The translations under genes were made by a program, and so were the position numbers. A stretch of 28,148 bases of DNA, taken from IMG/VR virus record IMGVR_UViG_3300000956_000098, positions 1-28,148 of that record; one strand, written 5' to 3'. Below the pieces are notes generated by a model. That model saw only the letters and a program-made list of their open reading frames with translations. It was not told where the DNA came from and ran no database searches. Positions 1,495-17,911 of this stretch are shown piece by piece. This DNA comes from a virus. Positions within the stretch are counted from its first letter, which is position 1. The number at the start of each line of letters is the position of its first letter.

Positions 1495-1817
1495 CCGACA
1501 CGGACGCGCCGCGTGCGGATCTGAGTTGGCCGGCGCTGATGCGACGGGCCCACGCGACCGAGCATGCTGAGGACTGGCAGTACGCCGTCGTGTGGCGGTT
1601 CGCGGCCGAAGGTGACCCCGTCGAACTCGACGATCCCCCGACCGAGGGCACCGGGTGGGAGCGGAACATCGACCGCGCCGACGATGGGCGAGAGGTAACC
1701 GTCCCTCGCTGGTCGGACGGGTCGAAGGTCATGCACCTGTCGTACTGGCGGCGGAAGTCACCAGGGACGAAGCCGTGGCAAGTGCGGCACAAGCTCCACG
1801 AACAGCGCGAGGCCTAG
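1491..1817 (+). CDS. Hypothetical protein, last gene of the left arm
   Basis: A 108-residue acidic protein with many Trp and charged residues (WPALMRRAHATEHAEDWQYAVVWRFAAEG near the N-terminus). I recognise no domain. GTG at 1491 is chosen because AGGAG lies eight bases upstream and the start overlaps the preceding TGA. An in-frame GTG at 1482 sits inside that ribosome-binding site and is less likely. Its TAG stop shares the bases CTAG with the TAG stop of the convergent tail gene. No terminator is visible between the two opposing transcripts. It probably forms a unit with the DUF6221 gene. Confidence 0.7.
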   Translation: MTDTDAPRADLSWPALMRRAHATEHAEDWQYAVVWRFAAEGDPVELDDPPTEGTGWERNIDRADDGREVTVPRWSDGSKVMHLSYWRRKSPGTKPWQVRHKLHEQREA

Positions 1818-2152
1818 CCCAGATCGTCGCTGATCCGGATCTGGATGTAGCCCCTGGTCGGGAAGGTCTGCTTGTGGCCACCCGGCCAGGTCGCCTCGAA
1901 CTCCACCAGCAGCAGCCCAGCGGTGGTGGTCTGCGGTGAGACCCACTGGTGGGTCACGGTCGCCTTCCACTTGTCGGTCGCATCCACGACCGGGGTGGTG
2001 GTGGCGTTGATCAGGAGGGCCGTCTCCCCGCGTAGCCGGCCGAGGATCTTCCATGACTCCACGAGGGTCAGGTCCACTGTCGTCGGGGATGCGACCAGAT
2101 CCACGATCAGGTCGGGTTCCAGGTCGCCGCGTTTCGGTCCGTCGATCGTCAC
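1814..2152 (-). CDS. BppU-N-like Ig-fold baseplate or tail-associated protein
   Basis: A 112-residue protein resembling the N-terminal domain of phage baseplate upper proteins (BppU_N type). It starts with GDLEPDLIVDL, continues with VDLTLVESWKILGRLRG, and ends with LLLVEFEATWPGGHKQTFP followed by IQIRISDDL. That family forms an immunoglobulin-like beta sandwich that joins receptor-binding parts to the baseplate. The GTG start overlaps the TGA of the upstream repeat protein (GTGA), and AGGAG lies just before it. It is the last gene of the late block. A free-standing BppU-N domain could be an adaptor or decoration on the tail tip. The family call is from memory of the pattern. Confidence 0.7.
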   Translation of the reverse strand: MTIDGPKRGDLEPDLIVDLVASPTTVDLTLVESWKILGRLRGETALLINATTTPVVDATDKWKATVTHQWVSPQTTTAGLLLVEFEATWPGGHKQTFPTRGYIQIRISDDLG

Positions 2153-3468
2153 TCGGAACTCCTAGCGGTAGCGGTGGACACGGCCGGGACAGCGGTAGCG
2201 GTGAGGACCAGAGCACGTGGGGTCGCGAGGGCGGAGTAGTCCCGGACTGTGGCCGTCACTTCCTCGGGGGCCTCGAACGGGGCCACGACCTCGGCCGCAC
2301 CAACCAGCGAGGCAGTGACGGACAGGCCGCCCGCAGCGAACCTCTCAAGCAGGGCGGCACCCGAGAGGTCTGCGGTACCCGAGAGATCGCCTGTGGCTTC
2401 GCGCGTGACCGTTGAGGCCCCTGCCAGCGTGGCCGTGGCGGTGAGGCCGCCTGCTGCTGTACGGGCCAGCAGGGCGGCGCCGGTGAGCCCAGCGGTGACA
2501 GTGAGGTCACCGCTGGCAGACAGGCCGCCGATCACGTCGGCGGCACCAGTCAGGGTGGCAGTGGCGGAGAGGTTCCCGCTGCTGGTCTTGGCTACCGACG
2601 CGGCGCCGGTGGTGAGGACCGTGGCTACGAGGTCGCCGAGGACCGGCTTGATCCCGGTCGCAGCACCGGTGAGTGCGGCGACGGCGGCCAGGGTGCCCAC
2701 CGCGGACATCGCCAGGGATGCGGCACCCGAGAGGGTGGCGGTGGATGACCGGTCGCCCGAGGCGGACTTCTCGGCCGAGGCTGCGCCAGCGAGAGTCGCG
2801 GTAATGGACCTGTCGCCCGTCGCCGAGTGGGTCGTCGATGACGGCACGAGCTCCAGCGCGATGACATACGCCGCGGCGCTCGACGTTGCGCCCGTCCATG
2901 CGGCAGGCGACTCCGGCGTGCCGGCCGTGAGACCGGACAGCTTGTCCGCGACGACAACGGTCGTACCGCCCGATCCACCGGTCGCGAACGACGCACGCAC
3001 CGTGTACCCGGCCGGCGTCCCGGTCGGGACCACCGAACTGGAGACGCGATCCATGTAGACGAGGACGATCGCCGAACCGCTGTCCGTGGGGGTGATGCTC
3101 GGGCTGCTGTGGCTCGTGACAGCCGTCCCGCCTTCGGCCAGGGACGTGACGTTCGTGATGGTGGGGCTGTAGCCCCGGTACAGCGCGAGCACACCGGTCT
3201 GGCGGTTCGCGCCACCACAGACCAGCGACACGTCACCGGACTCCGACCCCGTGCTGTCCAGACTGGCGACGATGGCACGCAGGGCACCGTCAGCGTTGGT
3301 GAACTCGGACGTGAAGCCTGAGGGCGGTTCGGTGCGGGTCTGCGTGTTGTCGCTCGCCCACCCGACGACCGCGACGTCATCGGCGTTGTGCGCCGGCCAC
3401 GTGACGCCAGTGAGAGTGGTGACTGAGGTGGTGGTGGACGAGGCGTCAGCCGCTACGAAGGTGCCCAT
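2149..3468 (-). CDS. Tail surface protein with an N-domain and nine 20-residue repeats
   Basis: A 439-residue protein in three parts. Residues 1-214 form a beta-rich domain (opening MGTFVAADASSTTTSVTTL, with GSESGDVSL and VYMDRVSS motifs) that is clearly paralogous to the start of the Gp37-like tail protein at 11431-13416. Residues 215-396 hold nine imperfect repeats of about 20 residues, with consensus SA[ST]G[DN]L[ST]xTATLTGAAxxxx. A 43-residue tail ends the protein. There are no cysteines beyond one in the N-domain. Ala/Gly/Thr-rich repeats of this kind suggest a beta-structured stalk on a tail tip or fibre. No enzyme motif is seen. ATG 3468 is preceded by AAGGTGAG. Function is inferred from paralogy and position. 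Confidence 0.75.
   Translation of the reverse strand: MGTFVAADASSTTTSVTTLTGVTWPAHNADDVAVVGWASDNTQTRTEPPSGFTSEFTNADGALRAIVASLDSTGSESGDVSLVCGGANRQTGVLALYRGYSPTITNVTSLAEGGTAVTSHSSPSITPTDSGSAIVLVYMDRVSSSVVPTGTPAGYTVRASFATGGSGGTTVVVADKLSGLTAGTPESPAAWTGATSSAAAYVIALELVPSSTTHSATGDRSITATLAGAASAEKSASGDRSSTATLSGAASLAMSAVGTLAAVAALTGAATGIKPVLGDLVATVLTTGAASVAKTSSGNLSATATLTGAADVIGGLSASGDLTVTAGLTGAALLARTAAGGLTATATLAGASTVTREATGDLSGTADLSGAALLERFAAGGLSVTASLVGAAEVVAPFEAPEEVTATVRDYSALATPRALVLTATAVPAVSTATARSSE
2281..2826 (-). repeat. Nine coding repeats of about 60 bp
   Basis: This stretch encodes residues 215-396 of the tail protein at 2149-3468. Nine units of about 20 codons follow one another, each with a Gly-Asp/Asn/Gly turn and a TATLxGAA core (for example GDRSITATLAGAAS and GNLSATATLTGAAD). 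The DNA copies have diverged at many positions, so the array is old and selected at protein level rather than freshly amplified. Confidence 0.85.
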
Positions 3469-3485
3469 GGCTCACCTTCGGTAGA

Positions 3486-3881
3486 TCAGGCTGCGATCGG
3501 CGTGAGGCTGAACGTCAGGCTGGTGATGTTCAGGACGTCGGTGTTGGCGACCGTCTTCGACGCCGTCAGCGCCAGAGAGAACCGGAAGGACCCCGAGGTC
3601 GAAGCGCTCCACGCGGACAGGTGTGAGATCGTGTCCGCGCCAGTAGCGGTCCACGTCGGAACGTTCGAGATGCCGCGCGTCCGCGAGGTCGTCCCGGAGG
3701 CAGCGCCCCACGTGATGGACTGCCGCGTCGACGGTACGCCCGTGGCGGCATTCGCCGTGCCTGCCGCGCCAGGGTCGCCATTGTGCGCAGCGATGTGCGA
3801 AGCGGTTACGGTCGCTGCGGTGCCGTCGAGTGCAGTCAGCACCAAGTCGGCGAAGGTAGCGGCAGCCAGTCCAGCAGTCAT
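3486..3881 (-). CDS. Minor tail or virion-associated protein, unknown function
   Basis: A 131-residue Ala/Thr/Ser-rich protein with alternating hydrophobic residues, probably all beta. Its opening (MTAGLAAATFADLVLTALDG) and the segment about HIAAHNGDPGAAGTANAATG resemble small tail-fibre-associated proteins in actinobacteriophages. Such proteins are usually annotated only as phage tail fibre or hypothetical. No signal peptide or enzyme motif is seen. It lies four bases downstream of the 46-residue gene at 3885-4025 and just before the repeat-bearing tail protein, so a role at the virion tip is plausible. That role is inferred from neighbours. Confidence 0.65.
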   Translation of the reverse strand: MTAGLAAATFADLVLTALDGTAATVTASHIAAHNGDPGAAGTANAATGVPSTRQSITWGAASGTTSRTRGISNVPTWTATGADTISHLSAWSASTSGSFRFSLALTASKTVANTDVLNITSLTFSLTPIAA

Positions 3882-3884
3882 GAT

Positions 3885-4025
3885 TCAGTCCTTCGATCCG
3901 TCGGCGTGGACGACTTCGGCGTCGGCCGTGATCTTCAGCGCCCAGACGTAGCCATCGGGGAGCTCGGGCAGTTCGGTCGGCGGGTTCGCCGGGTCGATCT
4001 GAACGTCAGCGGGGAGTTCGGGCAT
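3885..4025 (-). CDS. Small hypothetical phage protein (46 residues)
   Basis: The protein begins MPELPADVQIDPANPPTELP and ends in a short strand-like segment (GYVWALKITADAEVVHADG). The Pro-rich first half is probably extended. ATG 4025 is preceded by CCGGAG with a spacing of seven bases, and the stop is four bases before the next start, so it fits snugly between its neighbours. Very short acidic proteins in this position are common in actinobacterial prophages and have no known function. Confidence 0.65.
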   Translation of the reverse strand: MPELPADVQIDPANPPTELPELPDGYVWALKITADAEVVHADGSKD

Positions 4026-4037
4026 GGCTGGCTCCGG

Positions 4038-4190
4038 TCAGGTGAGGGTCTGCAGCAACTGCAGCGCGGGGACGAGGACCCACAGCGCCAGACCGGCCGC
4101 GGTCAGGTTGAACCGGGCCGGGACACTGAAGGTCGCCAGCAGGAAGAAGGCGAACGAGACGGTCAATAGCAAGAGGTAGATGACCGTCAT
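4038..4190 (-). CDS. Small two-span membrane protein, holin-cassette member
   Basis: A 50-residue protein, nearly all hydrophobic. The first segment (VIYLLLLTVSFAFFLLATFS, about 3-22) and a second at about 30-47 (LTAAGLALWVLVPALQLL) are separated by a short PARFN loop. ATG 4190 has GGAGG upstream and lies one base after the TGA of the preceding holin-like gene (TGACATG), so translation is likely coupled. Two-span proteins encoded next to holins in actinophages can be a second holin or an antiholin. The sequence alone cannot tell which. Confidence 0.7.
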   Translation of the reverse strand: MTVIYLLLLTVSFAFFLLATFSVPARFNLTAAGLALWVLVPALQLLQTLT

Positions 4191-4191
4191 G

Positions 4192-4371
4192 TCACGCCTC
4201 CGCCGGCTTGTTCGGGATGGCGAAGGTCGCCACTGCGGTGCACGCGGCACTGGCCAGCATCAGCCAGGGGCGGACGGCGTCCGGTACGGGCACGTCGGGC
4301 ATGCCGAGGATGGCGGTGATGACGCCGCCGATGAGAGCGGCGTACGCCTTGGCGCGTTCGGCGAACTTCAT
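4192..4371 (-). CDS. Holin candidate (DUF7439-like)
   Basis: A 59-residue protein beginning MKFAERAKAYAALIGGVITA and ending with a second hydrophobic segment (WLMLASAACTAVATFAIPN). This start, a basic amphipathic head followed by two membrane spans with a Pro-rich turn (GMPDVPVPDAV), is one I associate with actinophage proteins labelled holin or DUF7439. A holin would permeabilise the membrane and release the amidase encoded two genes upstream. ATG 4371 overlaps the TGA of the preceding gene (ATGA), and GGAG lies about seven bases upstream. The assignment rests on family memory and cassette position. Three other small membrane proteins nearby are alternatives. Confidence 0.7.
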   Translation of the reverse strand: MKFAERAKAYAALIGGVITAILGMPDVPVPDAVRPWLMLASAACTAVATFAIPNKPAEA

Positions 4372-4544
4372 GGGGTCTCTCCTGTCTCGGGCAACTGCCG
4401 GAGATGGTTCACGTTGGGGTTCCGCTCGCCGAGGATGAGCTGGTCGTCGACGGTGAGGAACAGGACATGGCCGGGTTTGAACACGACCTTGTCGGCCTCG
4501 ACCTGCTGCTTGATGCCGGACCAGGTCTCGAACTCGTAGGTCAC
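4368..4544 (-). CDS. Small hypothetical protein between endolysin and holin
   Basis: A 58-residue soluble protein starting MTYEFETWSGIKQQVEADKV, with a beta-like middle (VVFKPGHVLFLTVDDQLILG) and a polar end. The GTG start overlaps the amidase stop (GTGA), and its own TGA overlaps the ATG of the holin candidate (ATGA), so it sits in a tightly coupled lysis cassette. I do not recognise the family. It could regulate lysis timing or be a small structural protein that happens to lie here. Confidence 0.7.
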   Translation of the reverse strand: MTYEFETWSGIKQQVEADKVVFKPGHVLFLTVDDQLILGERNPNVNHLRQLPETGETP

Positions 4545-5389
4545 GGGATCCTGTCAGTGTCGGCCTCGATGCGGTCGAGTTGCTGGTTCAGGTCGCCACC
4601 CTCACCAAACCGCAGCGCCAGAGCGCGCGCCCGGGACAGGCAATCAGCGACAGTCGACTCGCCGATGACGCGGGCGAGGAGGCGGTCGACGACCAGTTCG
4701 GCGTCGGCGGTGGTGAGTGCCATGTCAGTCTCCTTGGGAGGGATGGGGGTTGGGCCGGTCGTACCGGGTCCGGCCTTGAGGCGGGCCGCAACGTCGGCGC
4801 GGAACTTGGTCATGGGGCAGTTGCCAGGGTCGTTCTTGCGGGCGGTCCACTCACGGTGCCCGATGACACTGAGCGCGGACCACCTGTGGAAGTCGCAGAT
4901 CGCGGCGGCCCACCGGACCGCGGCGTCGTACTGCTCCGCGGTCTGAGGCTGCCCGCCGTCGTACCTGACTTCGTTGCCGTAGAAGTGGGCGTTGCCGTCG
5001 GTGTCGTCACCGCCGGGTTTCAGTTCGGCGGTGAAGCCGAGATAGGACTCTGCGGTGACCTTCGCCATTACGGCGCCGGAGCCGCGGCCTGCGTGGTTCG
5101 CGCGGCCGGTCGCACCAAGCCACAGGTCACCGTCCATGTCGGTCGCGACGTGGCACAGCGGGCCGGGGATACCGTCCTCGGGGCGGCCGGTGATGAACAG
5201 GAAGTGGAGGTAGTCGTCGGACTGGCCCGCGTCGGAGCCAGTGTGGTGGATCATCACGCCGCGTACGTCGTCGAACGGCCCCGCGGAGGCAGGGCGGCCG
5301 TTGGTCCGCCACCCCGGGTACTCCTTGTACGGGACACGCCACTTGATCATCTGCGCGATCGTCTGGTCCGCGGTCATCGGTCTGGCCAT
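4541..5389 (-). CDS. Endolysin, N-acetylmuramoyl-L-alanine amidase (Amidase_2 type)
   Basis: A 282-residue enzyme expected to cleave the bond between MurNAc and L-alanine in host peptidoglycan. The Amidase_2/PGRP fold covers about residues 40-205. GVMIHHTGS holds the first zinc histidine (H48 or H49), CHVATDMDGDLWLGA is a core strand pair, and NHAGRG, VIGHREW (H178) and DPGNCPM supply the remaining site (D187 or C191). After a Pro/Gly/Thr linker (about 206-218), the last 60 residues are helical and acidic, and may bind the cell wall or multimerise. No signal peptide is present, so it needs a holin. ATG 5389 has GGGGAG about seven bases upstream. It is the clearest gene of the lysis cassette. 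Confidence 0.92.
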   Translation of the reverse strand: MARPMTADQTIAQMIKWRVPYKEYPGWRTNGRPASAGPFDDVRGVMIHHTGSDAGQSDDYLHFLFITGRPEDGIPGPLCHVATDMDGDLWLGATGRANHAGRGSGAVMAKVTAESYLGFTAELKPGGDDTDGNAHFYGNEVRYDGGQPQTAEQYDAAVRWAAAICDFHRWSALSVIGHREWTARKNDPGNCPMTKFRADVAARLKAGPGTTGPTPIPPKETDMALTTADAELVVDRLLARVIGESTVADCLSRARALALRFGEGGDLNQQLDRIEADTDRIP

Positions 5390-5407
5390 GCGGCTCTCCC
5401 CGTTCGG

Positions 5408-6181
5408 TTAGGGCGTGCATTCCGCTGTGATGGGGCCGTGGTTCCGGTCGAAGTTGAACGTGAACTTCAAGCCGGGTACGCCTTCGCAGTCGACGTCGAC
5501 GATCATCGGGGCGTCCACGCCGTCAGTGCCATCGGTTCCGTCAGCACCCCGGCATGGCTTGGAGTCCTGCGCGCAGTAGGATGCGAGCGCTTGCTGAGCT
5601 GCGGCCAAGAGCTCCTCGTCGGTGACCTTCGGTGCGGCGGTTCCCGGTTCACCCTTGTCCCCGCGGTCACCCTTCGCGCCTACACACTTGTCGCCCACGC
5701 AGTACGCAGCCAGCGTGGCGGTGACGATCGGCTGCAGCTGGGCAGCCGTGGGGGTCGTGCCGTCCTTCGGCTTCGGGACGAGCAGGGCGGCGATGCGGGC
5801 GATCTGGGAGATCTCCGCCTGCGTGATCTGCACCTTCTGCCGCGCGATCTGATCAGCCACGATCACCCGTACGGCTGCGGCTTCCTTGGCGGTGAACTCG
5901 TCCACCTGCACCGGCGGAGCGGGGGGTTCCGCCTTCGGGACCGGGACCGGGGTCTTGCCCAGCGCAACGAGCCGGCGGTTCGCCTCGGCCAGCGCGACAC
6001 TGTTGGCCTGGACCTGACCCTCGACCTCGCTCACTTTCGTCAGCGCTTGGTTCGCGGTGGTGCTCGACGCCTGCGCGTCGTCCTGCAGGGTCGGGACCTG
6101 CACCATCAGCCACGCCACGGTCCCGGTCAGTATCAGGATCGCGGCACCCCCATATCCCCGCATCTTCAGTCTCGGGTTCAT
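5408..6181 (-). CDS. Membrane-anchored protein with coiled coil and collagen-like segments
   Basis: A 257-residue protein. Residues about 11-29 form an N-terminal membrane span (GAAILILTGTVAWLMVQV). A helical, probably coiled-coil region follows (about 32-73), then a Pro-rich linker (PVPVPKAEPPAPP) and a second helical stretch. The C-terminal part has two collagen-like runs: GAKGDRGDKGEPGT and GADGTDGTDGVD. Each is preceded by a cysteine pair (YCVGDKCVG and YCAQDSKPCRG), an apparent internal duplication. Collagen-like phage proteins usually form trimers. An N-terminal anchor plus stalk suggests a trimeric surface fibre, but it could instead be a tail component. Its ATG overlaps the stop of the coiled-coil gene upstream (ATGA). 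Confidence 0.75.
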   Translation of the reverse strand: MNPRLKMRGYGGAAILILTGTVAWLMVQVPTLQDDAQASSTTANQALTKVSEVEGQVQANSVALAEANRRLVALGKTPVPVPKAEPPAPPVQVDEFTAKEAAAVRVIVADQIARQKVQITQAEISQIARIAALLVPKPKDGTTPTAAQLQPIVTATLAAYCVGDKCVGAKGDRGDKGEPGTAAPKVTDEELLAAAQQALASYCAQDSKPCRGADGTDGTDGVDAPMIVDVDCEGVPGLKFTFNFDRNHGPITAECTP

Positions 6182-6576
6182 GCAGGACCCAACTCCTCCG
6201 GGATTTCCACCCCGTTCTCACGCAGCAGCCGCCGTAGCTGGTAGTTCTTGCCACGCTCGTCCAGTAACTCCGACTCGTGCTGGATCCGCATCCGTTCGAT
6301 GGTCTCGATCTTGTCGGTGCGCAACTCGTCGATCTTGTCCTCGAGCGACTTCACCCGCGTGATGAGCTTGTGCAGCTCGGCGGTGTTGGTCTCACTGGTC
6401 GTCTTCTCGCGGGCCTCGGATTCGATCCGCCGTTTCCGTTCACCCTCGACGTCGATCTGCCGGGCCTCCTTGTATGCCCTGACTGCTAACAAGGTCAGAC
6501 CTCCGAACGTGGCGAGCGAGATACCGGGGGCGACGAGGGTGGAGTCGGTGAGCTCCATCAGCAAGTAGGCGATCAC
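6178..6576 (-). CDS. Membrane span plus long coiled coil, unknown function
   Basis: A 132-residue protein. A hydrophobic segment at about 15-32 (APGISLATFGGLTLLAV) is followed by a charged, heptad-rich helix from about 33 to 120 (for example KLITRVKSLEDKIDELRTDKIETIERM). The shape resembles small phage membrane proteins near holins, sometimes called minor structural or spanin-like, but a spanin role makes little sense in a host without an outer membrane unless the host has a mycolate layer. GTG 6576 overlaps the upstream TGA. ATG 6558 (MELTDS) is an alternative start without a clear ribosome-binding site. Confidence 0.7.
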   Translation of the reverse strand: MIAYLLMELTDSTLVAPGISLATFGGLTLLAVRAYKEARQIDVEGERKRRIESEAREKTTSETNTAELHKLITRVKSLEDKIDELRTDKIETIERMRIQHESELLDERGKNYQLRRLLRENGVEIPEELGPA

Positions 6577-7031
6577 TGTTCATCCCCCCGTCTGGGGATG
6601 GGGCCACGAAACCAGGCCAGCACGAAATGGCTGACCGCGATCATGACCGCCACGTACGCGGCGCGCCAGATGTAGCCGCCGACCTGCACCTGCGGGGAGT
6701 TCTGGTAGTGCCACACGGCCTGCAAGGTGGCGCCTGCGAACCCGAAGTAGAGGATCGCGCAGGCGAGATGCCCCAGCCACACGAGAGAGTGCCTGCCGAT
6801 AGTCAGACCCAGTGCGAGGACTCCCGCGGCGATCAGGTACCAGAGCCCCCAGGTGCGCAGGGTTGCGAGTCTCTCCACCATCGTGAGGGAGTTTGGTATC
6901 GCGCCCGGCGGGTGGAGGTAGTCGTATCCGGTGACGAATGCGTGCCCGGCGAGCATCCACGAGGCGGTGCGGGCGAGCCACCACGGCAGCGGTGTACGGG
7001 CGAGCTTGGCCTTGAAATCATCAATGCTCAT
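6573..7031 (-). CDS. Four-span integral membrane protein
   Basis: A 152-residue protein starting MSIDDFKAKLARTPLPWWLA. Four hydrophobic segments are visible at about 18-33, 63-80, 84-107 and 119-140 (for example LWYLIAAGVLALGLTIG and AAYVAVMIAVSHFVLAWF), and a basic tail ends GPIPRRGDEQ. ATG 7031 is preferred over longer openings because the upstream bases belong to the small coiled-coil gene and AAGG/GGGGGG motifs precede it. In prophages a small polytopic protein here may be a holin or an accessory membrane protein. I see no transporter signature. Confidence 0.7.
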   Translation of the reverse strand: MSIDDFKAKLARTPLPWWLARTASWMLAGHAFVTGYDYLHPPGAIPNSLTMVERLATLRTWGLWYLIAAGVLALGLTIGRHSLVWLGHLACAILYFGFAGATLQAVWHYQNSPQVQVGGYIWRAAYVAVMIAVSHFVLAWFRGPIPRRGDEQ

Positions 7032-7197
7032 CCTTCGTCCCCCCAGGAGTGATGCGCGGTAAGGCGAACACCACGGCGAAGGCTCTGCAGGCTGCTTCGA
7101 TGGCGGCGATGCGTTCCTCGTGGTCGGCCAGTTGTGCTTTGAGTTCGGCGATCTCTGCTTGCAGGTCCTCAATCGGGTCGGGTGTCTTCTTCCCCAT
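7021..7197 (-). CDS. Small coiled-coil protein
   Basis: A 58-residue protein starting MGKKTPDPIEDLQAEIAELK. Residues 9-38 form a clear heptad-patterned helix with Leu/Ile at core positions, followed by a hydrophobic patch (FAVVFALP). The ATG shares bases with the TGA of the preceding gene (TGATG), and its end overlaps the next start by 11 bases, so it is embedded in the operon. It could be a chaperone or a small tail-associated protein. The function is unknown. Confidence 0.65.
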   Translation of the reverse strand: MGKKTPDPIEDLQAEIAELKAQLADHEERIAAIEAACRAFAVVFALPRITPGGTKDEH

Positions 7198-7559
7198 CAG
7201 GGGAGGATGGGCTGCGCGAGTGCGGCTCGGATCTCTGCCACCGTTGCGCTCATGTCGCCCACTGCCGCGGTGAGGGCGTCGTCGTCGATGCCGTTCGCTG
7301 CGAGCGCCGCATCGAGGGCGCGGACCCCGGCCTCCAGGGCGTCGGCGCGCTTCTCCAGCAGCCCGCCGTCGCGGCCGATGTCATAGGCGTAGACGCCGCG
7401 CAGGTCGGCCTGGTAGCGGGTGTAGGGCTTGCCGTCGCGGTCCTTCGCGCCCGGGATAGCGGTGGTGTACCAGGTCTGGATCTCTTCGCGGAAGATCTCC
7501 CGAAGGCGCGTCTCCTGCTCGGCAGTGAAGACGGGTGGGGCCACTACGAGGACGGGCAT
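7197..7559 (-). CDS. Hypothetical protein, first gene after the moron
   Basis: A 120-residue, mostly helical acidic protein beginning MPVLVVAPPVFTAEQETRLRE. It contains a WYTTAIPGAKDRDGKPYTRYQADLRG-like central segment and a C-terminal helix with regular hydrophobic spacing (ALEAGVRALDAALAA, then AVGDMSATVAEIRAALA). I do not recognise the family. ATG 7559 is preceded by AGGAGG at good spacing. The plus-strand moron promoter begins only 16 bases upstream. This gene starts the leftward lysis/distal block, so it may need its own leftward promoter or read-through across the moron. Confidence 0.65.
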   Translation of the reverse strand: MPVLVVAPPVFTAEQETRLREIFREEIQTWYTTAIPGAKDRDGKPYTRYQADLRGVYAYDIGRDGGLLEKRADALEAGVRALDAALAANGIDDDALTAAVGDMSATVAEIRAALAQPILP

Positions 7560-7574
7560 GGTGGCCTCCTGGCA

Positions 7575-7603
7575 TTGTCAGAACCGCTACTCCCCGCTAC
7601 CTT
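7575..7603 (+). promoter_or_regulatory. Sigma70-like promoter of the methyltransferase moron
   Basis: TTGTCA (7575-7580) and TACCTT (7598-7603) are separated by 17 bases, close to the vegetative consensus. They point rightward towards the methyltransferase start 43 bases downstream of the -10. The promoter faces away from the leftward gene at 7197-7559. The match is by eye only. Confidence 0.5.
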
Positions 7604-7646
7604 GGAGTCTCAGCTCGTGGGGGGCTGTAGGAGCATGGGGGATCAC

Positions 7647-8372
7647 ATGACACGACCATTGGGCCTTGGTGCGCCCAGATCCAACAAAGGTGACCGGGGT
7701 GTGGAGAAGAGGCTCACCGCGCTCGCGCGCCTGACGCCGCTCAAAGGCGAACGGCTACTCGACGTCGGCTGCGGTGACGGCACCTACACCAGGCGTTTCG
7801 CCGAAGGCTGGGAACACGTCACCGCGGTAGACGTGGAGCCCGCGCGGCTCATCGACTTCCGCACCGAGATCGCAGGCACCGACCTCGACCGCATCGTGGT
7901 GCGGCAGATGCCCGCCGAGGAGCTGGACCTGCCGAACGACGCGTTCGACACGGTCACCACCATCGAGGTGTTGGAGCATGTGCAGGATCTCGGCCAGACG
8001 ATCAGTGAGATCCACCGCGTACTCCAACCGGGCGGCAGGTTCCTGATCACGTCACCGAATCGCTGGTTCCCGTTCGAGACCCACGGGTTCTTCTTCCTGC
8101 GTAAGCGAAGGTGGGCACCGAGATACAGCCTGTTCCTGCCGTGGTTCCCGCCGCTGCACCGCCGACTGGCGGATGCGCGGTCGTTCACCGTGCGGGGACT
8201 CTCCCGGCAGGTCGAAGGCCACGGCTTCACGCTGGTCGGGGTGGACTACATCATGCCACCGTTCGACCGGTCCGGGCTCGGCGGGAAGATCCGCCAGCTC
8301 ACAGACCGGGTCGAGCGCTCCCGGTTCAAGTGGTTCGGGATGGCACTGGTGCTGGTGTTCGAGAAGGACTAG
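7647..8372 (+). CDS. Class I SAM-dependent methyltransferase, moron gene
   Basis: A 241-residue methyltransferase with the full SAM-binding Rossmann pattern: motif I LLDVGCGDGTY (37-47), an acidic strand end at VTAVDVEPAR, VVRQMPAEELDL, FDTVTTIEVLEHVQD, and GGRFLITSPN. The C-terminal third is aromatic and basic (WFPFETHGFFFLRKRRW, then LFLPWFPPLH). I associate that feature with methyltransferases encoded among surface-glycan genes. The substrate is unknown. Methylation of host cell-surface glycan, changing phage adsorption, is an inference. ATG 7647 has GGGGGAT upstream; an in-frame ATG at 7635 is an alternative. The gene runs against all neighbouring late genes and has its own promoter and terminator, as a moron would, so it could be expressed in the lysogen. 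Confidence 0.85.
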   Translation: MTRPLGLGAPRSNKGDRGVEKRLTALARLTPLKGERLLDVGCGDGTYTRRFAEGWEHVTAVDVEPARLIDFRTEIAGTDLDRIVVRQMPAEELDLPNDAFDTVTTIEVLEHVQDLGQTISEIHRVLQPGGRFLITSPNRWFPFETHGFFFLRKRRWAPRYSLFLPWFPPLHRRLADARSFTVRGLSRQVEGHGFTLVGVDYIMPPFDRSGLGGKIRQLTDRVERSRFKWFGMALVLVFEKD

Positions 8373-8548
8373 CAGCCGTGTGAGCATCCACCATGAAACG
8401 AGTGCTCGCGCCAGTGAGTCAGGGCAACCTTCAGTTCCTCGATGGTCTGCGGCTCGGTGAGGGCGGCGCACTTCTCATCGCAGGCTACGAGGTCGCCCAT
8501 CGCGTGCCACGTGCTCCGCGTCAACGGGGGTTGAGTAGTATCTGACAT
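8369..8548 (-). CDS. Small cysteine/histidine-rich protein antisense to the moron end
   Basis: A 59-residue protein starting MSDTTQPPLTRSTWHAMGDL, with paired cysteines in VACDEKC and a C-terminal HSFHGGCSHGC. Two Cys pairs and several His could bind a metal ion. I do not recognise the family. ATG 8548 has AGGAG seven bases upstream, which supports it as real. Its TAG stop shares CTAG with the methyltransferase stop. It lies inside the interval bounded by the moron promoter and terminator but on the opposite strand, so the moron transcript would be antisense to its whole length. Confidence 0.65.
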   Translation of the reverse strand: MSDTTQPPLTRSTWHAMGDLVACDEKCAALTEPQTIEELKVALTHWREHSFHGGCSHGC

Positions 8549-8573
8549 ATCGACTCCTCATCCAGTCGGTCAC

Positions 8574-8613
8574 GTCCCGGGGCGGCTACCACCGTCGCCG
8601 GGACCTTTTCTTT
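8574..8613 (+). terminator. Rho-independent terminator after the methyltransferase unit
   Basis: GTCCC-GG-GGCG and CGCC-GGGAC form a nine-pair GC-rich stem with a small bulge and an 11-base loop. CTTTTCTTT follows on the plus strand. The orientation fits termination of the rightward moron transcript. It lies about 200 bases past the methyltransferase stop because the small antisense gene is in between. Confidence 0.7.
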
Positions 8614-8624
8614 GGAGTCTACGC

Positions 8625-10439
8625 CTAGGACACCGTCACCAAATTCGTCCCGGTCGGCACCGTCCCTGAGACGGCAGTGGTGATGTTCGCGTTCTCCACG
8701 TTGCCGATGATGGAGCAGTTCGTGAACGTCCCGTCGTAGTAGATGCCGCGCGTCTGTGTGGCGTACCGGCCACCGCTGCGGACGAAGATGTTGAACGCGA
8801 CAGCCTGGATCCGGTCGTTCGAGATCCGCAGTCCGGCCGCGTTGCAGGTGTCGATGACCAGCCCGGTCGCGGTCGCGGGGACGCCGTCCAGGAAGATGCC
8901 CGTGTCGTCGTCCTGCGACTCGTGCCCGGAGATCAGCGCGCGCCCCGAGGTGATGTACACGCCGTACTGGTTGGAGTAGAACGACTTGTTGCCGTTCATC
9001 TTCGTGTTGCCACCGGCGATCCGGTACGCGATCGTGTACCCGCCGATGTGGCAGTCGGTGATGAAGCAGTCCGACGAACCGTTGAAGTAGATGCCGTTGC
9101 CGCCCGCGTTGGCGTAGTTGCTGCGCATCTGGATGTTGCGAACCATGTTGCCACGGTTGTGATCCCCGGAGCCGGCTTGCAGGTGGATGCCATGGCGTGA
9201 GGTGTTCGCGTCGAACCCGAAGATGTACAGGTTCTCGATCAGGTGGTCCGAGTCCGGATTGCTGTCCGGGTAGGCGGATGTGTTCGCACCCCCGGTCATG
9301 TCGTAGTGGATCCCCGAGCACGTACCGCCTGAACCGGAGTTGCCCTGCATGTAGAAGTTCGACACATGCGTCAGGTGGTCCGTGTTGGCCCTCAGCCGGA
9401 TCAGCCCGGTCTGGTTGCACGACACCGCTCGCAGTTCGGTGGAACCCTGGCCGGCGCCGTTCAGGTGGACCGCGGTGCCGATCTGGATCCCGGCCGCACC
9501 GATGTTGAACCGGCCACCCGACAACTGCACCATCCCGATACTGCGGGCGCTGGCCGGCGAACCCGCGTTGAACGGAGCCGATGCACCCTGCCGGGGGCAG
9601 GCCGCGTCGATCGCGGCCTGGATCTGGACCTCGTCGTTCGTCGCGTCACAGACCCACGTGTAGGGGTCGGCTGCCGCGGCGGTGATCCATTCCGTTGGGG
9701 CGTCCTTGGACAGCACCTGCGCGAACACCGGGCGGGGTGCGGTGCTGGCCGCACCGAAGCGTGAGTCGTTGCCCTCGGCGACAGTCCCTGCGGTAGTCCC
9801 GAACGTGACGGCGAGAGTCCGGTTCGCTGACAGGTCCCCGCCACCGTTGAGGCCGGTACCGGCGGAGACGAGGCGGGTAGTGGGGACCGCGCCCATGTCC
9901 GCGGTGGTGAGGGTGACGTTGCCGGAGTCCGTGCCGCCGTTCGGGGTGGTGATGTCGATAACACCGGACACCCCGGAGGCGGGAAGCTGGGCGGTCGGGA
10001 CCTTACCGGTCGCGTCAAGAGACGCCACACCAAGGGCTGCCGCCTTCTCCGCTGAGCCGATCGGGTTCAGCGCCTCGATCACACGCAGCCTGGCCACATC
10101 GTTGACCGGGCGGGCAAGCCACCGCTGTCCACCGAGGACGCCCTGGCCCTGGCCGGTGACATAGACGGCGTCGAGGGTGTCCTCGGCCCAGAACAGGAAC
10201 GTCGAGCTCGACTCGGCCGGGAAGATCCCAGACGGGGCCGCGCCACCCGCTGTGGTGTAGCTGCCGGTGAACAGGGCGATGTCGGTGATCTGCGAGCCAC
10301 CGGTGCCCGCGCCCCACGCTTCCAGGGATGCGCCGGGGTTGAGCTTCAGCACGTCGACCGTGCCACCCGCACTGGCGGGGACAGTGACGGTGGTGACCAC
10401 GAAATCGGACGCGGTACCGGCGTACAGGATCTTCGCCAT
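8625..10439 (-). CDS. Tail fibre or tailspike with a beta-helix (pectate-lyase-like) domain
   Basis: A 604-residue protein. Residues 1-115 form a virion-attachment-like beta domain (MAKILYAGTASDFVVTTVTV, then FLFWAEDTLDAVYVTG). About 118-150 contains the fibre motif ASLDATGKVPTAQLP, common just before fibre shafts. About 155-235 is a Gly/Thr-rich linker with GLNGGGDLSANRTLAVTF. From about 265 to 590 the regular short strands with Asn/Gly/Ser turns (NLYIFGFDAN, NIQMRSNYANAGGNGIYFNGS, CFITDCHIGGY) indicate a right-handed parallel beta helix, as in tailspikes that bind or cleave glycans. Catalytic residues cannot be picked by eye. ATG 10439 has AAGGAG upstream. It is probably the main host-binding protein. 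Confidence 0.85.
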   Translation of the reverse strand: MAKILYAGTASDFVVTTVTVPASAGGTVDVLKLNPGASLEAWGAGTGGSQITDIALFTGSYTTAGGAAPSGIFPAESSSTFLFWAEDTLDAVYVTGQGQGVLGGQRWLARPVNDVARLRVIEALNPIGSAEKAAALGVASLDATGKVPTAQLPASGVSGVIDITTPNGGTDSGNVTLTTADMGAVPTTRLVSAGTGLNGGGDLSANRTLAVTFGTTAGTVAEGNDSRFGAASTAPRPVFAQVLSKDAPTEWITAAAADPYTWVCDATNDEVQIQAAIDAACPRQGASAPFNAGSPASARSIGMVQLSGGRFNIGAAGIQIGTAVHLNGAGQGSTELRAVSCNQTGLIRLRANTDHLTHVSNFYMQGNSGSGGTCSGIHYDMTGGANTSAYPDSNPDSDHLIENLYIFGFDANTSRHGIHLQAGSGDHNRGNMVRNIQMRSNYANAGGNGIYFNGSSDCFITDCHIGGYTIAYRIAGGNTKMNGNKSFYSNQYGVYITSGRALISGHESQDDDTGIFLDGVPATATGLVIDTCNAAGLRISNDRIQAVAFNIFVRSGGRYATQTRGIYYDGTFTNCSIIGNVENANITTAVSGTVPTGTNLVTVS

Positions 10440-10465
10440 GGGACTCCTTCAAGGCATGCGGAGGA

Positions 10466-10482
10466 GACCCACGATGTGGGTC
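10466..10482. other. Short perfect hairpin between two tail genes
   Basis: GACCCAC-GAT-GTGGGTC is a 7-bp stem with a three-base loop. It lies in the 56-base gap between the baseplate gene at 10496-11431 and the tail fibre gene. It has no T-tract on either strand. It may modulate or stabilise the transcript between these genes; a protein site is also possible. Confidence 0.35.
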
Positions 10483-10495
10483 AGGGAGGGGAGGA

Positions 10496-11431
10496 TCAGA
10501 GGTCGGCGTAGCGGTAGTGCCAGACCGGGCTACCGCTGATGATCTGGCCGGCCGCCATCGTCACGTCGTTGAAGCCCATCGACCCGGTGCCCGCTGAGAT
10601 GTACAGGCGGCACGGGCTGGAGCCGGCCCAGATGGTCTCGGTGATGTCCACCCCGCCGCCGGGCCACAGTGCGGACGGGAGGGTGACGGAGAAGTCGACA
10701 TCAGACCCGGTGGGGGTGACGAGCTTGGTCCAGTTGAAGGCGACCTTCACCATGCCGTTGCGGATGCGGGCCTTCATCGTCCCGCCGAACCCTGCGGGTG
10801 CGGTGAGCGCGTCATACCAGCCGGTGTCACTGTCGGCCCTGAATGTCCACCGTTCCGACCCAAAACCGCCGAGGAGGATCTTGCCGTTGTCGGGCGAGGT
10901 CACCAATCGACCGGGGAAGGTGGTTGGCGCAACACTGTCGGCGGTCTGCGCCAACAGTCCGTCTACCAGCCAGGTCCGACGGTCGCCTTGGGCGATCGTC
11001 GTCGCCGAGTAATCTGCCGCACTGTGCGGCAGCACTCCCTGACAGAGTGGCACGTCGAAGACGACGCCCGGGGACTGGTTGTAGGCCGGCGGTTCCGGGC
11101 TGCTGCTCGGGGTTCCGGCGATCATGATCAGCGCGGCGGCATGAGTGGTCCAGTTGATCCGCATCACCATCAGGTCGATGCGGGGAAGACCCGACGTGTT
11201 CGCCGGAGCCGCGGATGACGCAGAGGCCGCCGCATCCATGGTGACGTGGACGCCCGGGACGAAGCACTCGCCTGGCTGGATCAGCATGTTCCGCGCGCCG
11301 GCTACGCGCGCAGCGGCCAGCGACGTCCCGCCATATCCGCCGATGACGCCGTGGCCGCCGACGGCTCCCATGATCTTGGAGAACTCGGTCTCGCTGACGG
11401 TGCCGACGAAGCCAACCGGGTCGATCGCCAT
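10496..11431 (-). CDS. Minor tail/baseplate protein
   Basis: A 311-residue protein in two parts. The N-terminal part (about 1-175) begins MAIDPVGFVGTVSETEFSKI and contains RNMLIQPGECFVPGVHVTM and LPRIDLMVMRINW. Actinophage baseplate or receptor-binding proteins encoded after a Gp37-like gene often show this pattern. The C-terminal part (about 185-311) looks like a carbohydrate-binding-type beta domain (WTFRADSDTGWYDALTAPAG, then VKVAFNWTKLVTPTGSDVDF). The ATG overlaps the TGA of the Gp37-like gene (ATGA), pointing to joint production with the tail tip. The role is inferred from context and pattern. Confidence 0.75.
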   Translation of the reverse strand: MAIDPVGFVGTVSETEFSKIMGAVGGHGVIGGYGGTSLAAARVAGARNMLIQPGECFVPGVHVTMDAAASASSAAPANTSGLPRIDLMVMRINWTTHAAALIMIAGTPSSSPEPPAYNQSPGVVFDVPLCQGVLPHSAADYSATTIAQGDRRTWLVDGLLAQTADSVAPTTFPGRLVTSPDNGKILLGGFGSERWTFRADSDTGWYDALTAPAGFGGTMKARIRNGMVKVAFNWTKLVTPTGSDVDFSVTLPSALWPGGGVDITETIWAGSSPCRLYISAGTGSMGFNDVTMAAGQIISGSPVWHYRYADL

Positions 11432-13416
11432 CAGACCTCCCTCTCGAACTTGTTGATCCTGGCCCGCAATCTGCGGAGCTCCAGATAGACGGCACTCGCA
11501 CGCTCCGCCGCGCCCAGGTCCCCGACAACCGGTTGCACGTCGACCCCGTTCTCCACGGAGTCGGTGATGGTGACCTGCCGCACCTTGTCGGTCAGGGTCA
11601 CGCTCGGGAGCAGTTCGGTGGTGACGGTGTCGCCGAGGTTGTAGGTCTCGCCGAACCGCATCGACTCCGTGTCCCTGGGCACGACGGTGAACGAGTAGGT
11701 GGGGACGTTCTCCGCGAGGTCGTCGAGACCCTGTTCGTAGCGCTCGGCATCGGTGTCGCCGGAGCTGTCGAAGAACGACTCGGTGATACCCCAGCCGGTC
11801 TCGGAGGAGGTGAGCTTCGACAGCATGTACCTGCGGGCCGCGTCCTCGCCGTCGAGGCCGATGACGTTGCGGGTCTTCTTCGGCCCCTCGCTGGTGAACT
11901 CCCAGTCGCGGAGGTTCCCCAGTGAGCGGGAGAGCCTGACCGGTTGTGTCGCGGACTCGTAGACGTCGAACGACAGCGCGCCCGAGACCTGAGTGACCCG
12001 CAGGCCGAGACCGGTGATGTCGGCGATCCGGGCGCCCGCCTCGAGGACCGTCTCGAACCGCGGGCCGTAGCCCCTCACTGGGCCGCGGCCGAGGTCGGAG
12101 GCCACCGACAGTCCGGGGACGGGGAGCCGGGTCACGCAGTTCCTGGTGACCCAGTACTTGATGATCGTCTCGGCGTTGTCGCTGATGTGGTCCCGATAGG
12201 CGGGCTGGGTGAACCCCACCCCGTCGGCCGGGAACGTCGCGAGCGGGTTCGGGAACCCGAGTCTGCGATTGAGCCAGATCAGGTCGTCGTACCCGTAGAC
12301 CTCGACGTCATCCGTGCTGCCGTTGCGAGCACGCCGGATCCCGAACGCGGGGCCGGACATGATCCGCGTTCCCCGGTAGTCGATCGTGACCCGTCGCCCG
12401 GCCGCGGTGAAGAGATTCACCCCACCGTCAGTGAGAGCCAGGGTGAACCGCCACGACCCGACCTGGTTGTGGCGGAGGATCACTTCGCTCGAGGTGTATG
12501 AGCCGATCCGGCCGGCCTTCACGAACGGGGTGGAGGTCCCGTCCCACACCTCGATCAGGAACGGCGAGCGGGGCTCGGTGGACGCGACCGGGGCTGCGGT
12601 CACATCCGCCGCGCCGACCAGTGTCGCTGTGGCCGCCAGGTTGCCTGTGGCTGTCCGTGTGAGACCCGCGGCGCCAGTCAGACTTGCGGTCGTCGCCCGG
12701 TCGCCCGAGGCGAACTGTGTGATCGCTGCGGCACCTGTGAGGGATGCGGTGGCGGTGCGGTCTCCGGTGGCTTCGAGCACGGGCGCGAGTTCGAGCAGGA
12801 ACACGACCGCCGAGGTGGACCCGACCGCCACAGTCCAACTGGCAGGAGTGAAAGGGGTGAGGCCATGCGTACCGGACAGGTCGTCGGCGACCTGCAGGAA
12901 GATGCCGCCCGTACCCGAAGTGCCGAACTCTTCCCGCAGGGTGAACCCGGTCGGAGGCGTGGCGGTCGTGTTACCGGTCGACACCCGGTCCATGTAGATC
13001 ATCACGAACCCAGAGCCGGTCCTCTGTGGGGTGATCGCCGGGGACGCGTGAGTCGTTACCGCGGTACCCGAGGTCTCGGGCTGGTTGACGATCTGCTGAA
13101 CGTCGGAGTAACCATTCCAGACGCCGAGCGCGCCGACCTGTCGGGCACCGGTTGTTGTCGTGAGGGTGACGTCACCGGACTCGGAGCCGGTCATCGACGT
13201 CGGGATCCGCTTGCCAACGATCGCGCGGAGGTTTGTGTCGGTCAGGTCGGCGATGTTGGTGAACGCCGCGTCCATGGTTCCGGTGTTGGTGCTGTCACCG
13301 TAGCCGTGGGCAAGCAGCGCCAGGTCATCACCGGAGTGGGAGGGCCAGGTGGTTCCGGTCAGAGTCGTGACGCTGGTTGTCAGAGCACTGATGTCACCGG
13401 CGACAAAGGTGCCCAC
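11431..13416 (-). CDS. Siphovirus ReqiPepy6 Gp37-like tail protein with an extra N-terminal repeat module
   Basis: A 661-residue fusion. Residues 1-214 are the same domain that starts the protein at 2149-3468 (MGTFVAGDISALTTSVTTL, with SGSESGDVTL and VMIYMDRVS). Residues 215-274 are three 20-residue repeats (GDRTATASLTGAAAIT type). From about 285 to the end is the Gp37-like tail domain: FLIEVWDGTSTPFVKAG, an RHNQVGSWRFTLAL segment, GPAFGIRRARNGSTDDVEVYGYDD, and a C-terminal part resembling tail-tip hub proteins. Gp37-like proteins usually start near the IEVWD segment, so the first 280 residues are an addition. The GTG start overlaps the TAG of the distal tail gene (TAGTG). Confidence 0.85.
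   Translation of the reverse strand: MGTFVAGDISALTTSVTTLTGTTWPSHSGDDLALLAHGYGDSTNTGTMDAAFTNIADLTDTNLRAIVGKRIPTSMTGSESGDVTLTTTTGARQVGALGVWNGYSDVQQIVNQPETSGTAVTTHASPAITPQRTGSGFVMIYMDRVSTGNTTATPPTGFTLREEFGTSGTGGIFLQVADDLSGTHGLTPFTPASWTVAVGSTSAVVFLLELAPVLEATGDRTATASLTGAAAITQFASGDRATTASLTGAAGLTRTATGNLAATATLVGAADVTAAPVASTEPRSPFLIEVWDGTSTPFVKAGRIGSYTSSEVILRHNQVGSWRFTLALTDGGVNLFTAAGRRVTIDYRGTRIMSGPAFGIRRARNGSTDDVEVYGYDDLIWLNRRLGFPNPLATFPADGVGFTQPAYRDHISDNAETIIKYWVTRNCVTRLPVPGLSVASDLGRGPVRGYGPRFETVLEAGARIADITGLGLRVTQVSGALSFDVYESATQPVRLSRSLGNLRDWEFTSEGPKKTRNVIGLDGEDAARRYMLSKLTSSETGWGITESFFDSSGDTDAERYEQGLDDLAENVPTYSFTVVPRDTESMRFGETYNLGDTVTTELLPSVTLTDKVRQVTITDSVENGVDVQPVVGDLGAAERASAVYLELRRLRARINKFEREV
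12595..12774 (-). repeat. Three coding repeats of 60 bp, same family as at 2281-2826
   Basis: These bases encode residues 215-274 of the Gp37-like protein as three units of exactly 20 codons (cores GDRTATASLTGAA, GDRATTASLTGAA and GNLAATATLVGAA). They start at the same residue number, 215, as the nine repeats in the paralogous protein at 2149-3468. The two genes therefore differ mainly in repeat number and in what follows. Confidence 0.85.
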
Positions 13417-14378
13417 TACCAGGCCCGCCAGAACTTCGGCGTGAACTCAACCTCGACCTTCGTCCCCGCGTCGGAGCCGATCAGCGTCAGGCCCAGTTGG
13501 GTGGACGCGGATGCCGGAATGGCGCCGAACTCGACCGCGCCGGCCGACCCCCACATGTTCGCCCCGAGATCGTCGACCATGGTCTGCTTCTCGGGGTTGG
13601 AGTCGACGCGGATCCAGTGGTTGAGGGTCTTGGTGATCGGGAGCGCGATCGACTTCCCGCCCACGGTTCCGGTGAAGGACGTAAACGGGCCGTGGATCGT
13701 CCAGGTCGGCCACACGTCCACGTCGCCGGGGTTGGTGACGATCGCGTTGTCGGTGGTCTGCGAGTTCGCGATGTAGAAGTCGGGGGCCTCGGTCCCGACC
13801 CCGCCGCCGTAGAAGTTCACGCCGGTGACGGACTCGAACTCGAGCAGGACCGAATCGCCGTAGTAGTACGGCTGTTCCGCGGTGAAACGGAGCTTGTGGC
13901 TGTACCAGTAGAGGCCGTAGTTCGAGGACAGGAATTCCTCGTCCGCACCCGACAGGTACCGCAGGTTCAGGTACCGCCGATTCCCCAGCGGGTCAGCGAC
14001 AGTCAGGACGCCGAGCTTGTCCGGGCGAAGCGTGGACATGAACCGCGCCTGCTCCGCCCGCGCTTCTGTCGGAGTAGAGCCCGTAACGAAGACCGGGAAG
14101 TCGAAGACCCGCTGCTGCACCCGGTACCCCTGCCAGGTCGCGCCGTCTGTCGTGGCGGACTCGGTGAAGTACTGGGTGACCGGCGGCATTCCGAGTCCAT
14201 TGCGGCCCTCCAGTTGCATCACCGCCGAAGAACCGAGCCCACCCTGGATCTGCCACGTCTCGGCGTTCCAGCCCGTCCAGGTGAACGACAGCAGATCCGT
14301 CGCGATGTACGGATCCCCGATCGGGGTGGGGACATCCACAGGCGGGGTGATGGTTCCGGGGCTGACCACTACGGGCAT
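13416..14378 (-). CDS. Distal tail protein (Dit/Sipho_tail type)
   Basis: A 320-residue protein encoded directly after the tape measure, the usual place for the distal tail protein that joins the tube to the tip. The N-terminal half holds FVTGSTPTEARAEQARFMSTLRPDKLGVL and the strand pair NRRYLNLRYLSG, followed by YGLYWYSHKLRFTAEQPYYYG. This is typical of phage tail family proteins with a split-barrel domain. The C-terminal half (about 205-320) is a galectin-like beta domain (PGDVDVWPTWTIHGPF, NHWIRVDSNPEKQTMVDDLG) characteristic of Dit proteins. TGACATG couples it to the tape measure, with GGAGG upstream. Confidence 0.85.
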   Translation of the reverse strand: MPVVVSPGTITPPVDVPTPIGDPYIATDLLSFTWTGWNAETWQIQGGLGSSAVMQLEGRNGLGMPPVTQYFTESATTDGATWQGYRVQQRVFDFPVFVTGSTPTEARAEQARFMSTLRPDKLGVLTVADPLGNRRYLNLRYLSGADEEFLSSNYGLYWYSHKLRFTAEQPYYYGDSVLLEFESVTGVNFYGGGVGTEAPDFYIANSQTTDNAIVTNPGDVDVWPTWTIHGPFTSFTGTVGGKSIALPITKTLNHWIRVDSNPEKQTMVDDLGANMWGSAGAVEFGAIPASASTQLGLTLIGSDAGTKVEVEFTPKFWRAW

Positions 14379-17901: not shown

Positions 17902-17911
17902 GGCCCGCCTC

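Follow-up and report, generated by a model that had tools for sequence, protein, structure and literature searches.

Homologous N-terminal domains and 20-residue repeats ahead of the tail-tip hub and on a separate protein of an uncultured actinobacterial siphophage

The stretch of viral DNA analysed here (28,148 nucleotides, IMGVR_UViG_3300000956_000098; henceforth the window) contains the larger part of the virion gene block of an uncultured actinobacterial siphophage and encodes two proteins, P0001 and P0002, in which homologous N-terminal domains (N-domains) are followed by arrays of 20-residue repeats. In P0002 this module stands ahead of a tail-tip hub domain, at a precise position at which it is present in some phages and absent from another, while N-domain and repeats have been exchanged independently of each other and evolve under constraint on the protein. 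On balance we favour the reading that N-domain and repeats constitute an exchangeable decoration cassette, likely a surface-binding head on a spacer, carried both by the hub and by a separate fibre.

The gene block comprises small and large terminases, portal, scaffold, an SU10-type capsid protein, tail tube, tape measure, a Dit-like protein, P0002, a virion protein, a spike-like protein, an amidase, a Gp80-like protein, P0001 and a gene for a 112-aa protein; among cultured phages the terminases are nearest to those of Streptomyces phages, at about 60% identity. Scans of IMG/VR detected N-domains on four contigs besides the window, all metagenomic and without host assignment; the sample is small, with three fused hubs, one close unfused relative and these four contigs. 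Both genes are present in L007/L005 and in L006 with the arrangement of the window, and the P0002 homologues, 92% and 74% identical to that of the window respectively, have three repeats each. Genome collections scanned with two alignments of the N-domain yielded no bacterial relatives.

Several features elsewhere in these records deserve mention in their own right. Positions 1-60 of the window resemble the 3' portion of a tRNA gene (GGATTCGAACCCCTGACC) and may be an attachment-site remnant; ARAGORN found no intact tRNA in the window, and L007 carries what reads as a tyrosine-integrase-like ORF beyond its P0001 homologue. The SU10-type major capsid protein (21717-22931, minus strand) has 404 aa against the 292 positions of its profile, and its residues ~170-250 resemble an inserted beta domain. 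The product of 5408-6181 (minus strand) combines a membrane-like N-terminus with short collagen-like GxY stretches and weakly matches phrog_1806 'collagen like minor tail'. The C-terminal third of the tape measure (14380-17991, minus strand) is 49% identical across otherwise different phages (L004 15220-16299 and L044) and includes a HRTPSQGPWGHHIHSIAIGD-type motif, suggestive of a common enzymatic or peptidase-like segment.

The module at the start of the hub gene

P0002 (ORF 11431-13416, minus strand, 661 aa) begins with a B-type N-domain (residues 1-212; 12781-13416), recognized by its homology to P0001, by profile and by a confident beta-rich model, and continues with three 20-residue repeats (residues 215-274; 12595-12774) whose periodicity is evident from a lag-20 self-identity of 52% against 36% in the best of 2000 shuffles. 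The Gp37-like baseplate hub domain follows (residues 288-633; 11518-12555; PF14594 E 3.9e-34, phrog_538 E 2.2e-38) and matches positions 2-370 of the 370-position Sipho_Gp37 profile with 118.7 bits, the cut-off being 26.2; the protein ends in a segment (residues 634-661; 11434-11517) in which DSSP assigns a helix to residues 639-660, where the model has low confidence. Proteins of the Gp37-like family usually start at the hub domain itself, a trait that is not strictly defining, and the P0002 hub starting at residue 284-288 is a variation within the family and no ground for exclusion from PF14594. A short hub isoform made by internal initiation was considered and rejected, the GTG codons at 272 and 290 lacking a Shine-Dalgarno sequence and that at 272 not being common to L006.

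The gene lies directly after that of the distal tail protein (Dit-like; 13416-14378, minus strand; phrog_106 E 5e-43, phrog_33 Dit E 1e-12), an order also seen in phiScoe3, and the TAG stop of the Dit-like gene and the GTG start of P0002 have one base in common. Comparison with L044, whose tape measure, Dit and hub are 49%, 48% and 51% identical to those of the window, locates the module exactly. Both Dit proteins end in FWRAW; in the window this ending and its TAG overlap the GTG start of the N-domain, whereas in L044 the TGA stop overlaps the GTG start of a hub that begins at the equivalent of P0002 residue 284, with neither N-domain nor repeats. The L044 record, itself a fragment, contains no N-domain at any other place. 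Taken as sequence, the fusion is real, and the module is present or absent, in frame, at a defined site at the start of the hub.

The earlier note on this DNA had held that Gp37-like proteins usually lack such an N-terminus, and so it proves. Besides L044, the proteins of phiScoe3, Bauer, Kurnik, IndyLu, ArV2 and Pavo start directly with the hub domain, and comparison of CDS start with match start gives the same result for P100_A, Teagster, Rachella, Antuna, TrvxScott and Ponzi; the module is not a standard part of the family. The hub domain is matched by 588 records of cultured phages, yet the N-domain by none of the cultured-phage records, and tblastn of the N-domain, the repeats and the L004 neighbour against cultured phages returned nothing even at E 10. 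In a local tblastn control N-domains 36-38% identical were recovered with low-complexity filtering at that database size, so the absence is meaningful at such identities, tblastn being blind to fold relatives at 10-22% identity. The absence from the other hubs examined tentatively favours gain of the module over its loss.

In the relatives selection acts on these reading frames at the level of the protein, the repeats included: against the nearest relative, differences at codon positions 1/2/3 number 20/17/60 in the repeats of P0001 and 5/5/29 in those of P0002. Between the hub proteins of the window and L006 third-position differences are about equal in the N-domain (83/213, 0.39 per codon) and the hub (141/345, 0.41), while amino acid identity is 86% in the N-domain and 68% in the hub domain. 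By this sequence measure the hub protein is more strongly constrained in its N-domain than in its hub domain, which argues for a selected function and against a neutral passenger or a recently imported tract.

That same constraint could reflect an internal docking surface instead of adhesion, and the leading alternative, which we consider unlikely without dismissing it, is that the N-domain is a structural docking domain that gives the tip stability by packing on Dit, the tail tube or a collar protein, P0001 attaching elsewhere by the same docking surface. The N-termini of many phage fibres serve as anchors. In mycobacteriophages the N-termini of hubs contact the distal tail protein (PMC13252515), a further point in its favour. 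The hub of the close relative L044, however, has no such module, a repeat spacer would be unusual for a tight docking domain, and the hub domain of P0002 already provides an anchor.

Two lineages of N-domain and the exchange of repeats

The preferred reading, an exchangeable cassette, draws on the second protein as well. P0001 (ORF 2149-3468, minus strand, 439 aa) consists of an A-type N-domain (residues 1-209; 2842-3468; profile match 8.4e-97), nine 20-residue repeats (residues 215-396; 2281-2826) and a short T/A/R-rich C-terminal tail (residues 397-439; 2152-2280); short-motif tails of this kind, T/A/R- or T/RP-rich, occur also in L006A, L002A and L004. The repeats, with the consensus xAtGDLsATATLTGAAxVxr, are spaced 20 residues apart with one step of 22, and the lag-20 self-identity of P0001 is 44%, the best of 2000 shuffles reaching 24%. 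The N-domain profile matches exactly two places in the window, and these two N-domains, of 209 and 212 aa, show 47% identity (E 4e-47). The earlier note had described these two proteins as having a common N-domain with repeats from residue 215 in both, nine units in one and three, followed by a Gp37-like protein, in the other; every part of that description is borne out, both ORFs standing at the coordinates given there but on the minus strand, which the note left unstated, and the sequence homology disposes of the possibility that the N-domains are unrelated.

Its suggestion that the pair arose by duplication followed by repeat expansion fares less well. A- and B-type N-domains form separate lineages, a split with moderate tree support (84/93), and both lineages occur also in L002, an otherwise different phage fragment, where the A-type N-domain is 83% identical to that of P0001 and the B-type one, encoded one gene further on, is a stand-alone protein of 221 aa without repeats or hub. 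The lineages look old, and recent duplication need not be invoked. The same repeat consensus does stand behind both N-domains in the lineage of the window, as would follow from a recent duplication within this phage with subsequent repeat expansion and fusion to the hub; we nevertheless judge that course of events improbable, given N-domains just 47% identical, two lineages coexisting in L002 with the B-type standing alone there, and both architectures already present in three phages with up to 32% divergence between their hub domains.

Head and stalk occur in several combinations. P0001 and L002A have N-domains 83% identical and regions behind them only 26% identical, the N-domain of L002A being followed by an unrelated 21-residue repeat array, whereas P0001 and L006A are 66% identical over the later repeats and 42% over the N-domains, that of L006 belonging to a different lineage. 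In L004 (7926-9809) an N-domain precedes 18 copies of an 18-20-residue repeat of DSAGLTDAALL type and a tail of ITPRP type, a product that in part matches phrog_12240 and phrog_5070, whose function is not annotated. From these combinations in L006A, L002A and L004, with three unrelated repeat types on similar N-domains and one array on different N-domains, the sequences indicate that N-domain and repeats are exchanged independently. The earlier suggestion of a stalk whose varying length might bear on host range finds little encouragement in the arrays of the present repeat, which number three units in the hubs of all three phages and 9 (window), 9 (L007) and 8 (L006) units in the P0001-type proteins. 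A scan of viral contigs for the repeat, with 167 pattern matches of which two were confirmed, led back only to contigs found before; further cases may be concealed by low-complexity filtering.

That P0001 and the hub extension are neutral or selfish additions, propagated by recombination and without part in adsorption, would suit their patchy occurrence and modular exchange, but is very improbable given the strong third-position bias throughout and, in the hub protein, an amino acid constraint on the N-domain exceeding that on the hub itself.

Predicted fold and the setting of P0001

AlphaFold2 models built with nine sequences give a confident all-beta N-domain, a beta-sandwich, in both P0001 and P0002 (for P0001, pLDDT mostly 80-91 over residues 30-210), and two short strands per repeat unit at low confidence, the hub parts of the models being of low confidence as well; a beta stalk is a plausible reading of the modelled repeats. 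Neither Pfam nor PHROG offers a convincing match to any of the N-domains, no PDB sequence matches them, and a PDB fold search returned no match at E<=0.001 and no significant hit giving a binding site. In the BFVD viral fold library, by comparison, there are 31 matches at E<=0.001, with a best E of 4e-12 and a target-normalised TM of up to 0.69 (A0A7R7IB80); among them are minor tail proteins of phages, a phage protein with the annotation CenC-like carbohydrate-binding and many uncharacterised proteins about 200-250 aa long, with identities mostly of 14-22%. No fold relatives were found by sequence profile in Sinorhizobium phage phiN3 or Synechococcus phage S-CBWM1, and a 251-aa beta-like protein upstream in L004, alike by eye, proved unrelated by profile comparison. 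On these models the N-domain is best regarded not as a new fold but as a diverged form of an unnamed beta-sandwich that is widespread in phages. The beta-sandwich modelled for both N-domains is what would be expected of a virion-decorating carbohydrate-binding module; it matches no carbohydrate-binding module family convincingly in Pfam or PHROG, nor any PDB fold at E<=0.001, and is not filed as one, so that the likeness is retained as a working analogy.

As to the position of P0001 in the virion, gene neighbourhood offers a guide. Directly upstream lies a gene (3486-3881, minus strand) matching PF23140 'Podophage GP4 fiber I protein gp80' (E 3.5e-17), the head protein family phrog_240 and PDB 8jou_a (E 1.9e-5), and it holds the same position in L007 and L006. 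Downstream, and overlapping the end of P0001, the conserved 112-aa protein gene (1814-2152, minus strand) is the third gene of this cassette; its homologues after the P0001-type genes are 96% (L007) and 55% (L006) identical, it has a distant match to HGTV-1 gp6, and it belongs to no Pfam or PHROG family. The idea that it might be a BppU-like domain is supported by no Pfam or PHROG family and was dropped. The order Gp80-like gene, P0001, 112-aa gene is the same in three phages. In L002 the P0001-type gene comes after that of a head-tail adaptor; in L004 it has the capsid/connector genes on one side and the tail genes on the other, so that P0001-type genes are encoded with connector or fibre genes in L002 and L004 as well as, through the Gp80-like neighbour, in the window, L006 and L007. 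Because of these neighbours a neck or head fibre appears at least as likely for P0001 as a place at the tail tip; the earlier description of both proteins as tail proteins, possibly of the tip, thus stands for the hub protein P0002 and may not hold for P0001.

The Gp80-like protein is itself a fast-diverging virion protein, 43-47% identical between the window and two relatives although their Dit proteins are 98% and 64% identical. Likewise fast-evolving is the spike-like protein (8625-10439, minus strand), which is 66% identical to that of L007 against 98% for Dit and gives a hint of a NosD-like beta-helix below the cut-off.

Proposed role and comparison with known systems

In the arrangement that we envisage, the beta-sandwich of ~210 residues would be the head, most likely binding a carbohydrate or wall polymer of the host, and the beta-rich repeats of ~20 residues the spacer. 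In P0002 the cassette is fused before the tail-tip hub, which is trimeric in related phages, and would thus present three short-stalked heads around the hub, with three repeats each. P0001 would be a separate fibre-like subunit whose long stalk has nine repeats, with a small C-terminal anchor, attached to the neck or head beside the Gp80-like protein with greater likelihood than to the tail tip. With heads exposed outwards at these two positions, the particle might touch the cell envelope through weak, multivalent binding, either before the tail tip engages or while it does so. Taken one step further, a single mobile head-plus-stalk cassette may serve two distant sites of the virion, the hub and a neck or head fibre, with its parts exchanged independently, giving two-site adhesion and making the N-terminus of the hub a new attachment point; this we put forward tentatively. 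The arrangement, probably a surface-binding decoration at two places of the particle, is new, while the strategy behind it is already known. Since the junction before the hub is sharp between relatives, hubs with and without the module form a natural pair for assessing its contribution to adsorption, and the N-domain, as a widespread and unannotated phage domain, deserves a family model.

In siphophage virions adhesion modules are known from Dit, the major tail protein and the neck, and in Tal or hub proteins from the region that follows the structural domain. The closest parallel is provided by the 936 lactococcal siphophages, whose neck, major tail protein and Dit are decorated with carbohydrate-binding modules; two of these modules bound host cells (PMC6669499). 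Common to both cases are patchily distributed accessory modules on several virion proteins, including those of neck and tail tip; the window differs in that homologous modules, known here from sequence and with no family match among carbohydrate-binding modules, stand in front of the hub and also on a protein of their own, with repeat stalks. In the lactococcal P335 phages Tal has an N-terminal structural domain of 350-400 residues (PMC9692632), and the accessory domains of the described examples lie behind it, whereas the add-on of P0002 is N-terminal. In view of this layout and that of the mycobacteriophage hubs, an N-terminal addition of such size is unusual for a hub. Residues 288-633 of P0002 belong with the Siphovirus ReqiPepy6 Gp37-like and actinophage hubs (PF14594, phrog_538), likewise encoded downstream of a Dit gene, and are set apart by the N-terminal extension of 283 residues, absent from the 13 other hubs examined. 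P0001 for its part resembles Podophage GP4 fiber I (Gp80, PF23140) and neck fibres in its setting, with a Gp80-like gene directly upstream in three phages; P0001 itself has no similarity to Gp80, and the link is one of neighbourhood. With the unnamed phage beta-sandwich of A0A6J5RXD4 and of the minor tail proteins of Hawkeye and Phabba, finally, the N-domain shares its modelled fold over about 190-220 residues (longer in a few cases), from which it differs in being about 10-22% identical, outside any convincing PHROGs or Pfam profile and without a tblastn match in cultured phages.
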